Source: a virus
IMG/VR virus record: IMGVR_UViG_3300038552_000129
Location: 1-26,588 of that record
Length of the DNA: 26,588 bases
Reading direction: 5' to 3' (one strand)
The position numbers and the translations under genes are program-made. Position 1 is the stretch's first letter, and every line of letters starts with the position of its first letter. Below, piece by piece: positions 4,675 to 9,764 of the stretch. The notes beneath the pieces were generated by a model. It was not told the origin of the DNA. It made no database searches and saw nothing but the letters and a program-made list of their open reading frames with translations.

Positions 4675-5151
4675 TTAGGGGAGCTTCGAGAGAAGCCTCG
4701 AACGAAAATCGTCTTCGAGCTTCTTCTCGGGCTTTCCGACAATGCGCTCGCGGAACGCGGCGCGTGATTCGGGGGTCGAGACGTCGACCTTCTTGTCGGG
4801 CTCGGGGGTCGCGGCTTTCACTGCGGCGAGAGCGGCGGCGACAGCCTTCTCGACTGCCTCCCCGATGAGTTTGTTGATGTCCTGCGGAGCGGGGGGAGGA
4901 GGGGGCGAAGGCACAGGAGCGGGAGCCGGGGCGGGCGTGGGCTCTACGGGGGCTGCTGCTGGCGCCTCGGGAGCCGCGGGGGGAGGTTCCGGGGCGGGGG
5001 GAGGCGAGGGTAGCGGGGCGGGGGCGGGAGCCTCTGCGGGGCTCGTAGGGGCTTCGGCTGGCGCCATCCGCGCCTGGAGTGCTTTCGTCGCCTCGACGAG
5101 CGCCTGTACTGCCTCGACGGTGGCGGCGGGTTTCTTCGCGTCTTCGGTCAT
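4675..5151 (-). CDS. Scaffold-like protein with Pro/Ala-rich linker
   Basis: A 158-residue protein starting at ATG 5151, chosen because AAGGACACC lies just upstream, the Shine-Dalgarno used by many genes here; an in-frame ATG at 5175 overlaps the protease stop but lacks such a site. Residues 1-30 form a helix; about 33-90 is a low-complexity Pro/Ala/Glu linker; about 93-115 is an Ala-rich helix (NKLIGEAVEKAVAAALAAVK); the C-terminus is charged (FRERIVGKPEKKLEDDFRSR). Helix-rich, low-complexity composition and position between prohead protease and capsid genes suggest a scaffolding protein with the basic C-terminal end binding the shell. No family was recognised by sequence. Confidence 0.62.
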   Translation of the reverse strand: MTEDAKKPAATVEAVQALVEATKALQARMAPAEAPTSPAEAPAPAPLPSPPPAPEPPPAAPEAPAAAPVEPTPAPAPAPVPSPPPPPAPQDINKLIGEAVEKAVAAALAAVKAATPEPDKKVDVSTPESRAAFRERIVGKPEKKLEDDFRSRLLSKLP

Positions 5152-5171: not shown

Positions 5172-5828
5172 TCATAGTTTCGTCAGAGCGTCCGCGAGCT
5201 TGCGGAGCGCGAGATTCAGGGGGTCGATGCCCTCTGCGAGGGAGTCCATCCGGAACGCCTCGAAGTCGAGGTTCCCGTCGGAGTCCAGACGCAACGATAC
5301 GTCGCGTCCGAGCCTCGCCCATCCTTGGGGACCCAGAGCGGCGTGATTGTAGACAATGTTCGTCTGGAGGAAGTCTGCCTCCTCGTCGGACGGGAGCGCC
5401 TCGACGGGGTCCATCGAATATCCTAGCGAGACTTCGACGAGCTTGCCTTCCTCGACCATCGCAATCGCGCGAGGGTCGTGTAGCTGTAGAGTGCCTTCGA
5501 CGTAGGGAGCCTTCGCGTCAACGCGAATCACGTTTCCCACGGCGAGGTGATGCCAGTTCGAGAGGTCGACGAACATTGACCTCGGATGGTCAATGGTAAC
5601 AGGCACACCGACGAGGGAGTCGAGGGAGTCGGGGCGAAACACTTCGGAGTCGCTTCGCCTCTCGCGAACCGTCTCGGTTCCGAACTTGTACCCGAAGACG
5701 CCCGTCTTCGTCAAACGACCGTGGACACGGAGCGCCCCGTTCGAGGTTCTCTCGGAGGCGTCGATGCGAAAGCAGGTCGCGCGTGTTTTCTGTGACATCA
5801 TATTCTGTGACATGTAGTGTATGGTCAC
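5172..5828 (-). CDS. Prohead maturation protease (DUF2213-like)
   Basis: A protein of up to 218 residues with the DUF2213 pattern: LTKTGVFGY near 39, RERRSDSEVFRPDSLDSL, GVPVTIDHP (His81), then VEVSLGYS (Ser134) and a YNHAALGPQGWARLG segment around 160-174. In this phage protease group the His and Ser form the core of the active site that cleaves scaffold and capsid during head maturation. The listed start is GTG 5828; in-frame ATGs at 5813, 5801 and 5798 are alternatives and none has a good Shine-Dalgarno, so the start is uncertain. It lies only nine bases after the T run of a strong terminator, which is unusual for the first gene of a structural operon. Confidence 0.75.
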   Translation of the reverse strand: MTIHYMSQNMMSQKTRATCFRIDASERTSNGALRVHGRLTKTGVFGYKFGTETVRERRSDSEVFRPDSLDSLVGVPVTIDHPRSMFVDLSNWHHLAVGNVIRVDAKAPYVEGTLQLHDPRAIAMVEEGKLVEVSLGYSMDPVEALPSDEEADFLQTNIVYNHAALGPQGWARLGRDVSLRLDSDGNLDFEAFRMDSLAEGIDPLNLALRKLADALTKL

Positions 5829-5836
5829 ACTCTGTC

Positions 5837-5891
5837 AAAAAAAGGGGAGGGGGCGAACACGGAGGGGGGTGAGTTCCGTGCTCGCCTCCCC
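5837..5891 (-). terminator. Strong intrinsic terminator before the structural operon
   Basis: On the minus strand GGCGAGCACGGA pairs with TCCGTGTTCGCC over 12 base pairs (one G-U) around an 11-base loop, and the stem can extend past one mismatch through a G-rich/C-rich pair. Seven T residues follow (plus-strand A run 5837-5843). It ends transcription coming from the 6.26-kb promoter-like box or from the lysis cassette. The prohead protease start follows at once, so the capsid operon needs read-through, antitermination or a weak promoter overlapping this site (TTGACA at the end of the T run, without a convincing -10). Confidence 0.75.
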
Positions 5892-6256
5892 CGAGGGAAG
5901 ACCCAACAAACCAACCCCAAACCAACTAAGGGGCGAAGATGTCCGGCACTAACTTTACAGAAGGGCGCCGGTTTCCCTTCAAACCGAGAGCTACTCGGGC
6001 TCGGACAGCTACTCCGAGAGAAATAAGGCACCGTCCCCGAGGACCCGCTCGACGCGCCGAAGCGGTCGTAACGCAGCGGGGAGTCCCGTCGCCAGACTCC
6101 CCTATGCACACGGGCGTCGCCTTCTGCACTACTGGCATCGTCGACCCGCCCGGTGGACGGCAAAACTTTGAACGCAGCCCCGAGGAGGGAGGCTAAGCCT
6201 CGCTCTCCCCGGTCGACTCTGCGAAAGATTTTTTAGGAGCGAACTAGTGCCTCTCC
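5837..6256 (-). ncRNA. Candidate structured leader or non-coding RNA
   Basis: Between the endolysin and the prohead protease about 490 bases hold no convincing gene. On the minus strand the interval begins with a promoter-like box (predicted start near 6256) and ends at the terminator at 5837-5891, giving an RNA of roughly 420 nt. Perfect or near-perfect hairpins lie along it: 6189-6201 (inside a longer stem closed by 6173-6177 with 6219-6223), 6078-6102 (8 bp), 6042-6067, 6000-6018 (6 bp), 5984-5998 (5 bp) and 5970-5985 (5 bp). The 6000-6018 and 5984-5998 hairpins are one base apart and share AGTAGCT in their loops. It could be a trans-acting RNA or an antiterminating late leader. No known RNA family was recognised. 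Confidence 0.5.
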
Positions 6257-6275
6257 ATTCTAAGCATACGTAGAA
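6253..6275 (-). promoter_or_regulatory. Conserved box copy 3 (extended -10-like, dyad)
   Basis: Minus strand reads CTACGTATGCTTAGAATGG, with TATGCT (6268-6263) as a possible -10 and predicted start near 6256. TTCTA and TAGAA flank the centre as a dyad. There is no good -35; the upstream DNA is AT-rich (an AGCTTTTTTAGCTT tract). Two similar boxes occur at 8.5 and 23.9 kb. Confidence 0.5.
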
Positions 6276-6319: not shown

Positions 6320-7006
6320 TCAGTGATTTTTGAGAGCTAGCCGCTCGACTGCCTCGCCGAACTTCCACTGCGAGGGTCCGGGGTCCCACGGAAGCCCCGC
6401 CTTCGTCACTCGCGCCAGAGGGTGCGCGTCGGAGTGAGTGATGACGTGGTACGGGTCGAGGGGAATCCCGTACTTGTCCCCGAGGTGTCTGACCATCATG
6501 CGGAGAGCGGACCACGCTGCGGGGGTCCAAGCCTCCCGAGCGCCCGCACGGGGCGGGGCGACCTCGATTCCGATGGTTAGCTCGTTCGCGGAGCCATCTC
6601 GCCACAGGGAGCCTCCGAGGAGGTCGCGGGGGCTGCGACAGCCGGGGAACCGCTCCCGAAACCAAGAGAGCCCCGAGGGGTACGGCTTCGCCCATCCGGG
6701 GAGCTTATACTTCCACGCGCCCGCGGAGCCTACGTGCCAGGCGACCGTCATGGGGTCGACGAGCTTGCACACGATTCCCCACTCGCCGTCTACGAGGTAA
6801 TGGGGCGCCTCCTTCGAGATGCGCTCGTACACGTATCTCGCCGCCGCGTAGGGGTTCCCGAACGTGTCGGGGTGTTCTTGCCAGCGATTCCAGGGACCCG
6901 CGCCCGTCGTGTGTATCACGATTCCCCGAGGCTGCACCTTCCGGGGGCGAAGGACCTTCAAACGAGTCGCTAGCGCCTCGCCCGAGTCGATGATGAGGGT
7001 CGTCAT
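6320..7006 (-). CDS. Endolysin: N-acetylmuramoyl-L-alanine amidase (Amidase_2/PGRP fold)
   Basis: A 228-residue zinc amidase that would cut the bond between muramic acid and L-alanine in peptidoglycan. GIVIHTTGAG gives His32, AWHVG gives His91, IGIEV lies at 145-149, and THSDAHPLARVTKAGLPWDPG supplies His191, Lys202 and Asp208. By comparison with AmpD, His32, His191 and Asp208 would bind zinc. There is no signal peptide or cell-wall-binding domain, so a holin is needed for release. The start is ATG 7006, which overlaps the stop of the preceding small membrane-protein gene (ATGA); a frame-open upstream ATG lacks support. It ends the lysis cassette and is followed by the non-coding leader region. 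Confidence 0.88.
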   Translation of the reverse strand: MTTLIIDSGEALATRLKVLRPRKVQPRGIVIHTTGAGPWNRWQEHPDTFGNPYAAARYVYERISKEAPHYLVDGEWGIVCKLVDPMTVAWHVGSAGAWKYKLPGWAKPYPSGLSWFRERFPGCRSPRDLLGGSLWRDGSANELTIGIEVAPPRAGAREAWTPAAWSALRMMVRHLGDKYGIPLDPYHVITHSDAHPLARVTKAGLPWDPGPSQWKFGEAVERLALKNH

Positions 7007-8144: not shown

Positions 8145-8505
8145 CTGCTCCTCCTTTCACGAGGACAAGCCCCGGGGTCGTCTTCTCCGGCATGGGCGCC
8201 GTGAACCCTATCGCGAGCCCCGTGGGGTCGCTCTGAATCTGCATCGACCAGCCGCATCCAAGGGAAGTGCATCGCCACACGTAGGGCGCGTAATGCCTCG
8301 GGACGGTCGTCGACCGCCCTCTCCCGCAACCGGGACAGACGAACTTGAACGGCACTTCGCCCTCGTCGAGAGGGTATTTCCGGATTCTGGACAAAGGTGT
8401 CCCTTTCTTAGGCGATAGGAGAACGTCTCCGCTCTGCGGGGCGCCGCCTGCGGCGACCTCCGGGATGAGGGCGCGGCTCTTATCTGTCGTCTCCATTCTT
8501 AGCAT
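8107..8505 (-). CDS. Zinc-ribbon-like protein, 132 residues
   Basis: The central part has FVCPGCGRG near residue 55 and WRCTSLGCGW near 77, two Cys pairs fitting a zinc ribbon, followed by a Glu/Thr-rich tail. ATG 8505 has GAAGG eight bases upstream; ATG 8496 is an alternative without one. The start lies inside the second copy of the recurrent promoter-like box, so if that box is a promoter the first codons could not be on its transcript; it may act as an operator here. Nucleic-acid binding is plausible from the ribbon, but no family was recognised. Confidence 0.65.
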   Translation of the reverse strand: MLRMETTDKSRALIPEVAAGGAPQSGDVLLSPKKGTPLSRIRKYPLDEGEVPFKFVCPGCGRGRSTTVPRHYAPYVWRCTSLGCGWSMQIQSDPTGLAIGFTAPMPEKTTPGLVLVKGGADAPRSEEETTEQ

Positions 8506-8514
8506 ACGTAAAGC
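8494..8514 (-). promoter_or_regulatory. Conserved box copy 2
   Basis: Minus strand reads TTTACGTATGCTAAGAATGG, matching the 6.26-kb copy almost base for base, with TATGCT at 8506-8501. It overlaps the start codons of the zinc-ribbon gene and lacks a -35, so operator function is as likely as promoter function. Confidence 0.45.
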
Positions 8515-8570
8515 CTTCGCCCTTCGCCCACTTCCTGAACAATATCAACGCTAATGTCCAGTAACGGGAT

Positions 8571-8588
8571 TGTGTCAAAATAGACACA
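8571..8588. promoter_or_regulatory. Operator-like dyad overlapping a TTGACA
   Basis: TGTGTC-AAAATA-GACACA is a perfect 6-bp inverted repeat with an AT-rich centre. On the minus strand it contains TTGACA (8578-8573), a consensus -35, but only a weak -10 (CATTAG or ATTAGC) follows at proper spacing. It may be a repressor operator over a weak promoter for the 8505 gene. Confidence 0.45.
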
Positions 8589-8673
8589 TGCTCCGTCGCC
8601 CTTCGGGGACATGTTGCCCCTCGAAGGGAGCGAAGCTCGTCGAGACTGCCTCCGTCGCCTTCGCCATCGGGGA

Positions 8674-8735
8674 GGATTACAGTGAGGGTGCAGAGGATAT
8701 TACAGCGAGGGTGCAGAGGAATACAGTGAGGGTGT
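8674..8735. repeat. Three tandem ~23-bp repeats
   Basis: Units ATTACAGTGAGGGTGCAGAG, ATTACAGCGAGGGTGCAGAG and TACAGTGAGGGTGTTGG follow one another with a 23-base period and few substitutions. They are contiguous, with no spacers, so not a CRISPR array. Confidence 0.7.
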
Positions 8736-8927
8736 TGGGGGTTCATCCAACCCACCTCCCCGTACACCCCCCCACAAAAACCTACACCTCCCACACCTCC
8801 TCACCTCGACCTACATCGCAATCGTTTCATACTGAACAAGCCTGTCAAAAAGCGTGCCACGCAGGGGCGAAGCTGCGAAGGTGCAGCTCGTCGAGGGTTG
8901 GCACGGAACTTGCTTGCAGTGTGCGTC

Positions 8928-9090
8928 GATGTAGGTGCGGAACCTCGGCTCCCGAGCGCAGCGAGGGGGCTGCATTTGTGCTGGCACGAATCTTGCACGC
9001 CGTCGAGGGCTGTTCAGGTGAGGCGATGTAGGTGCAACTTGTTGCGATGTGGGCGCGTGTAGGTGCGGCACCCCACCCCCATGTAGGTGC
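8928..9090 (+). repeat. Cluster of GATGTAGGTGC direct repeats
   Basis: Two exact copies (8928-8938, 9025-9035), one copy lacking the first base (9081-9090), and two variants (9046-9056 GATGTGGGCGC, 9057-9066 GTGTAGGTGC). An inverted near copy lies at about 8808-8819. The spacing is irregular (97, 21, 11 and 24 bases), unlike coding repeats. Confidence 0.65.
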
Positions 9091-9189
9091 GCGGGGGGGA
9101 AGGGGGCTCGCCGACCCCCCGAACGCGCACAGGATTTTTTGAGAATCCCGTTCCAGTCTCACGGTAACGCCCACCGAGGCAAGCGCCCT

Positions 9190-9402
9190 TTACTTCCGCC
9201 CCTCCCGAGTAAAGCTCCGTTGCCTTGCGTCCCCGTCGAGGCATCCCTCCTCGTGCCTTCGCCCCCCGTGGGGGAGGGGGCGCCAGCACACGAGGCACGT
9301 CCCGCGGCGGTAGCACTCCTCGCAGAAGGCGCGCCCGTCCTCTTCGAGGAGGGCGGGGAGCTCTCCGCAGTTCGAGCAGAGGGGAGGAGGCGGCTTCGTC
9401 AT
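9190..9402 (-). CDS. Small zinc-finger protein, 70 residues
   Basis: The protein has CSNCGELPALL, FCEECYRRG and CLVCWRPL, three CxxC knuckles, plus a HEEGC end, spaced like a treble of zinc-binding motifs within about 45 residues. The start is ATG 9402; the upstream sequence has no good Shine-Dalgarno, so the start is less sure. The pattern of knuckles argues strongly for a real gene. Such small phage zinc proteins often bind nucleic acid or host polymerase, but nothing more can be said. Confidence 0.6.
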   Translation of the reverse strand: MTKPPPPLCSNCGELPALLEEDGRAFCEECYRRGTCLVCWRPLPHGGRRHEEGCLDGDARQRSFTREGRK

Positions 9403-9578
9403 GGCGGCTTCTGGTAGCCCCGGAGAGGGCGGGAGGGGAGGGGGGTAGCTAGGGGACTAGCGGCGGGGTTGGGTTCGCCCCGCAGCGGGCGTTCTGAGGG
9501 CTGCGAGCGCGAGGCGCAGAGCGAGGCGCCGGAAGGGGGCGCGGTAGCGGGGGTTCGCTCGGAGCCACTCCCCCCAAG

Positions 9579-9764
9579 TCACGCGGAGGGCTCCTCGTCG
9601 AAGTTGAGGGATAACTGTTCGACGACAAGCTCCTCGTCGAAGTTGAGGGATAACTGTTCGACGACAAGCTCCTCGTCGAGTGCAGCCTCGCGCAGAGCGG
9701 CGCAGATGCGGAGGAGCGCGTCGAGGTCGCTCCCCTCGATTGTGAAGGTCACTTTCGTTGACAT
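9579..9764 (-). CDS. Hypothetical acidic protein with tandem 13-residue repeat
   Basis: A 61-residue protein starting at ATG 9764 after an AAAGGACC site. Residues 1-30 look like a beta strand then a helix (DLDALLRICAALREAALDEE). The C-terminal half is two exact copies of DEELVVEQLSLNF, followed by DEEPSA. The repeat is exact at DNA level (two 39-bp units), so it is recent. Function unknown. Confidence 0.65.
   Translation of the reverse strand: MSTKVTFTIEGSDLDALLRICAALREAALDEELVVEQLSLNFDEELVVEQLSLNFDEEPSA
9591..9679. repeat. Exact 39-bp tandem repeat (2 copies plus 11 bp)
   Basis: Unit 1 is 9591-9629, unit 2 is 9630-9668, and the first 11 bases recur at 9669-9679. The period is 13 codons, so the reading frame of the host gene is kept. 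The copies are identical, pointing to recent slippage or unequal recombination. Confidence 0.9.

Follow-up and report, generated by a model that had tools for sequence, protein, structure and literature searches.

Gene content around the interval

The window, by which we mean the whole stretch of DNA analyzed here, is an IMG/VR record of 26,588 bases that is classed as linear and has a G+C content of 61.5%. All of its called genes lie on the minus strand, and matches to PHROGs and Pfam identify portal, head morphogenesis, helicase, exonuclease, DNA polymerase, endolysin, head protease, and head and neck genes. One phage protein, among the 42 proteins of an alignment from the window, has a match to the Pfam Trypsin domain (E = 6.6e-13). 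The interval considered here (6319-5829, minus strand) separates the end of the endolysin gene (Amidase_2; 6320 to 7006), which is the last lysis gene ahead of it, from the head maturation protease gene (5172 to 5828; PHROG 530, E = 5e-38), for which GTG 5828, ATG 5813, and ATG 5801 are the possible starts. No Shine-Dalgarno sequence is seen before either of the two ATG starts (5813 and 5801). Downstream of the interval, the protease gene is followed on the same strand by scaffold, capsid/head, and neck genes.

The head module of this phage is split, with portal and head morphogenesis (26500-23945) situated ~18 kb from protease and capsid (5828-840), and replication and lysis genes fill the ~18 kb between head morphogenesis and protease. 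In most relatives, the protease closely follows head morphogenesis. The split nevertheless has a precedent, because in Vibrio phage K373 endolysin, exonuclease, and other genes also separate head morphogenesis from the protease.

The gap between endolysin and protease measures 491 nt to GTG 5828 and 518 nt to ATG 5801, and only one gap in the window, that at 8145-9456, is longer. A preliminary description of this DNA had called the interval gene-free and had named a conserved coding frame across it as evidence against its reading. In a codon model derived from the phage's own usage, all six frames of the gap are non-coding and both flanking genes are coding, in agreement with that description. 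The two open reading frames considered as candidate genes were both rejected: an 85-codon frame on the plus strand (5939-6196) has a negative codon score and no PHROGs match among the matches listed, and a 70-codon frame on the minus strand (5926-6138) likewise scores negatively.

A repeated promoter motif and a strong terminator bound the interval

The upstream end of the interval carries the promoter motif TACGTATGCTTAGAATGGAGA (6272-6252, minus strand), which contains a -10-like TATGCT and a poor -35 element. The same sequence reappears at 8510-8490, heading the lysis genes, with 20 of 21 bases identical, and a third, weaker copy (TTCGTATACTAAGAGTGG) occurs at 23902-23885, after head morphogenesis; the match between copies was equaled in none of 100 shuffles. 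The similarity between the copies at 6272 and 8510 is sharply bounded (23 of 26 bases identical), and this abrupt end speaks for a functional motif more than for a duplicated segment. The copy at 23902-23885 carries a sigma70-type TTGAGA-N17-TATACT (10/12), and the presence of a good promoter in this third copy suggests that the TATRCT common to the copies serves as the -10 element. A scan with a promoter consensus returned none near the interval. The motif, TWCGTATRCTWAGARTGG, is 18 to 21 nt long, and its copies lie on the minus strand before the putative head leader, before the lysis genes, and before the gene that follows head morphogenesis; it probably represents the phage's own class of promoter. 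Transcription from the copy at 6272-6252 would start at about 6258-6250. The promoter-like box that had been noted at the opening of the interval is therefore better supported than first thought, since it belongs to a 21-nt motif that is common to 8510-8490 and, weakly, to 23902-23885.

Within the copy at 8510, ATG 8496 lies 4 nt past the -10-like TATGCT and opens a reading frame, which, from this spacing, may be leaderless. Elsewhere on the minus strand, TTGACG-N17-TATAGT (12424-12390; 10/12) is followed by 6 nt and then by ATG 12389, and this promoter probably serves a leaderless transcript.

The downstream end of the interval is occupied by an intrinsic terminator (5837 to 5892, minus strand), in which a 17-bp hairpin (5892-5846) containing an 11-nt loop and a single mismatch leads into CC and then seven uridines (5843-5837). 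Its folding energy is -31.9 kcal/mol, as opposed to -17.5 +/- 2.6 kcal/mol in shuffled sequences (z = -5.56), and none of 200 shuffles folded as stably. It ends 8 bases before GTG 5828 and 23 bases before ATG 5813, so the preliminary description was right to place a strong terminator immediately before the protease. A terminator scan did not report the 5892-5846 hairpin, most likely because of the scan's loop limit and the mismatch in the stem. Among 125 relatives, 21 carry a terminator-like site in the 220 nt that precede the protease, compared with 4 to 12% for most other head genes tested; a terminator at this location is thus not unusual in itself.

An inverted repeat, TGTGAC...GTCACA, and a direct repeat of 15 nt, ATGTCACAGAA, surround the protease start (5835-5790, minus strand), and it is possible that these repeats form an operator.

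Folding of the RNA between promoter and terminator

The sequence between the promoter motif and the terminator corresponds to a predicted non-coding leader or free RNA of ~420 nt (5837 to 6256, minus strand). The folding energy of this leader is at chance when the terminator is left out (z = -0.84) and reaches z = -1.70 when it is included. Eight Watson-Crick hairpins of at least 5 bp occur at six sites, against 4.1 +/- 2.5 in shuffled sequences (P = 0.09), so that the earlier count of at least six hairpins holds as a count, but the number lies within chance. Among the perfect stems of the leader, the longest, at 8 bp, is formed by GGGGAGTC-TGGCGACGG-GACTCCCC (6078 to 6102, minus strand).

Two hairpins had been singled out as a tandem pair, and they are present exactly as described: CTCGGA-GTAGCTG-TCCGAG (6000 to 6018, minus strand) and, one base past it, CCGAG-TAGCT-CTCGG (5984 to 5998, minus strand), which have GAGTAGCT in common. 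A tandem pair sharing at least 7 bases appears in 1 of 1,000 shuffles, and this is the sole such pair in the window. Despite this low frequency, the pair was selected after inspection and therefore constitutes weak evidence. Beside it (5940 to 5986, minus strand) are the stems CGGTTT/AAACCG and GAAGGG/CCCTTC, of which only one can form at a time, and a candidate pseudoknot between CCGGC, in a loop, and GCCGG. At least one pseudoknot of the same definition arises in 29% of shuffles, and as many as observed arise in 1.7%.

Pairing of the leader with the arms of the terminator is no better than that of shuffled leaders (P = 0.38 and P = 0.49), and an antiterminator helix was rejected on these grounds. 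The possibility that the leader masks the protease start was likewise rejected, as this pairing is weaker than chance. With the covariance models of Rfam 15, no match in the interval exceeds the gathering score, the only match in the window being a tRNA elsewhere, and a relaxed search of the interval yields chance-level matches only. Membership in a known RNA family was accordingly rejected, there being no Rfam match beyond noise. Nothing shows the inner hairpins to be more than chance.

Search for homologous intervals

No DNA match was found in GenBank phages. Searches with single proteins recovered nothing from IMG/VR (protease, capsid, and endolysin) or from GTDB genomes (protease). A search with a protease alignment recruited 80 IMG/VR loci and 52 genome loci with proteases that are 28 to 44% identical, and an interval-like sequence is absent from all of them. 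At this distance the interval does not align. Of two pattern scans for the promoter motif, one gave no match and the other gave six single matches resembling chance. Scans for the tandem-hairpin and pseudoknot patterns recovered no related interval, and among 23 IMG/VR stretches with a repeated GAGTAGCT core, none forms paired hairpins. With no homologous interval found in IMG/VR, GTDB genomes, or GenBank phages, nothing shows that the leader RNA is conserved.

One distant relative offers a comparison of layout. In contig L017 (IMGVR_UViG_3300022208_000008), whose protease is 34% identical, positions 4747-5002 hold a promoter-like TTGACA-N17-TATAGA, a small open reading frame, and a strong terminator whose T-run leads into the protease ATG. 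As in the window, a promoter-like site and a short region precede a strong terminator that abuts the protease start, and no clear Shine-Dalgarno sequence is present. Unlike the window, the region in L017 reads as a small coding frame of ~45 to 51 codons, and the two regions share no sequence similarity.

A late leader as the favored explanation

The repeated motif, the non-coding stretch, and the terminator likely delimit a bounded non-coding transcription unit, to judge from the sequence, and this unit would probably serve the capsid genes as a leader. The reading that we favor, tentatively, is a late unit of the kind formed by lambda pR' and tR', in which an RNA of ~420 nt is mostly terminated and read-through feeds the head operon. 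RNA polymerase would start at the phage motif at 6272-6252 and produce the untranslated RNA, and most polymerases would stop at the terminator (5892-5837). Polymerases that read through would most likely supply the head operon (protease, scaffold, capsid, and neck), their flow being set by a trans-acting factor or simply by incomplete termination. We infer the start and stop of transcription, regulated read-through, and the dependence of the head operon from this arrangement.

In lambda, the late leader consists of pR', the 6S leader RNA of ~190 nt, and tR', and it is antiterminated by Q. The unit described here resembles it, at the level of sequence, in having a promoter, an untranslated leader, an intrinsic terminator, and late genes on the same strand. 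It differs in lying after the lysis genes and before the head genes and in its length of ~420 nt, as opposed to ~190 nt. A layout of promoter, leader, and terminator is itself ordinary. The pR'-tR' region of Stx phages gives rise to a small RNA, StxS (PMC7873438), and here too the RNA transcribed up to the terminator could itself be a product. Stability, Hfq binding, and a target set StxS apart from the RNA predicted here, which might, or might not, be an independent product.

That the motif occurs between genes at three places, always on the same strand, argues for the late leader, as does the lack of a promoter with a good -10 element past the terminator. Since ~18 kb separates portal and head morphogenesis from the protease, a promoter near the protease also makes sense. 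Against the late leader, an antitermination gene was not recognized in this incomplete genome; the PHROGs and Pfam matches listed for the window proteins, which come from a contig that is a fragment, include no Q-type antiterminator. Chance-level folding of the leader, the lack of antiterminator pairing beyond chance, the failure to find a homologous interval, and the perfect TTGACA at 5838, which would allow a separate head promoter, also count against it. The earlier proposal of a structured RNA or leader is thus upheld in its layout of promoter, non-coding RNA, terminator, and late genes, chiefly because the promoter motif recurs and the terminator is strong, but not in its put-like component or as a new structured RNA. 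Should the late-leader model hold, this phage would join those in which an untranslated leader and its terminator control entry into the head genes, and it would be one in which portal and protease, split by replication genes, need separate promoters. The repetition of the promoter motif makes the model testable.

Alternative explanations

The head operon could instead have a promoter of its own. A perfect -35 hexamer, TTGACA, lies at the end of the terminator (5838-5833, minus strand), and its best -10 element, at a spacing of 16, is TACATG, which is poor; together they score 9/12. TTGACA occurs six times on the minus strand of the window, and three occurrences (5838, 8578, and 8848) are outside called genes. 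The preliminary description had found no convincing promoter downstream of the terminator, which is correct in that no good -10 element was found but overlooks the perfect hexamer, and its presence makes a separate head promoter a live rival. A head promoter near 5838-5833 would perhaps be an activated one. Under this alternative, which we consider possible but unlikely, the interval is a self-contained small-RNA gene whose free RNA of ~420 nt would function in trans or inside the phage particle, and the head operon uses its own TTGACA promoter. The boundaries of the unit, a promoter at 6272 and a terminator at 5837, suit such a gene, and the exact TTGACA is well placed. The lack of a Shine-Dalgarno sequence before the protease would fit a nearly leaderless transcript beginning close to the ATG, and functional small RNAs come from some phage late leaders, such as that of StxS (PMC7873438). 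The poor TACATG speaks against it, as do the lack of an Rfam match beyond noise even in the relaxed search, folding at chance once the terminator is excluded, and the failure to find relatives.

Equally unlikely, in our estimate, is that the interval is a plain insulating spacer. Transcription of the lysis operon would then end at the terminator, the RNA would be functionless, and the promoter at 6272 would be either redundant or a relic. Such a relic might perhaps have belonged to a small leaderless gene that has since been lost: after the motif at 6272 comes ATG GAG AGG CAC TAG, and after the copy at 8510 come ATG and an open frame of greater length. A spacer would be expected to fold and pair no better than chance, as is observed here, and both the terminator-like sites that 21 of the 125 relatives have ahead of the protease and the terminator of L017, which abuts the protease ATG behind an apparent small coding gene, agree with it. 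However, ~490 non-coding bases are long for a compact phage, being exceeded only by 8145-9456, and the promoter motif matches the 8510 copy at 20 of 21 bases.

Far less probable is a new kind of cis-acting RNA, belonging to a lineage without close sequenced relatives, in which the tandem AGTAGCT hairpins and the pseudoknot or switching stem would allow polymerase to pass the terminator and so time the head genes. Were the RNA itself to cause read-through, it would represent a second kind of protein-free antitermination, and the present evidence does not favor this.

Comparison with put RNA

The put RNA of HK022 brings about antitermination by binding directly to the beta' zinc-binding domain, with no phage protein. 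It is ~70 nt long and forms two stem-loops with internal bulges; putL lies immediately after its promoter and putR ~270 nt after its promoter, both upstream of terminators (PMC9378689). The interval resembles these sites in placing two neighboring hairpins on a phage transcript, downstream of a promoter and upstream of a terminator, with the tandem pair ~235 to 270 nt past the presumed start and ~90 nt before the terminator hairpin. It differs in that put precedes an early operon and the interval precedes a late one, and in that the tandem hairpins occupy 35 nt (19 + 1 + 15) with uninterrupted stems rather than ~70 nt with bulges.

The putL and putR sequences of HK022 were located by self-comparison and confirmed through annotation in related phages, and a covariance model was built from seven aligned put RNAs, whose consensus structure shows covariation. 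The model scores 96 bits on putL and 55 bits on putR of HK022. In the window it gives 32 weak matches, the best of which (11 bits, E = 0.22; 6218-6154) falls inside the interval but away from the tandem hairpins and is without the invariant GGCGGG and AGG segments. Three matches at least as high, up to 15.4 bits, occur in a control of 94 kb of G+C-rich phage and prophage DNA. Because the scores in the window are at background and none falls on the tandem hairpins, membership in the put family was rejected, and the put-like working proposed for the leader has no support. Direct action of the tandem hairpins on RNA polymerase to pass the terminator is therefore highly improbable, notwithstanding their one-base separation and a distance from the presumed start similar to that of putR, and the 23 IMG/VR stretches without paired hairpins point the same way.

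Other sequence features of the window

The largest stretch of the window with little coding signal is 8500-9456. It contains several ACCTACA/TGTAGGT repeats (9088, 9064, 9033, 8936, 8815, and 8786), three near-copies of ATTACAGTGAGGGTGCAGAGGA at 8676-8741, and the two TTGACA sequences at 8848 and 8578, and could function as a control region or as a replication origin. At 9590-9667, an exact tandem duplication of 39 nt is situated within a small reading frame.
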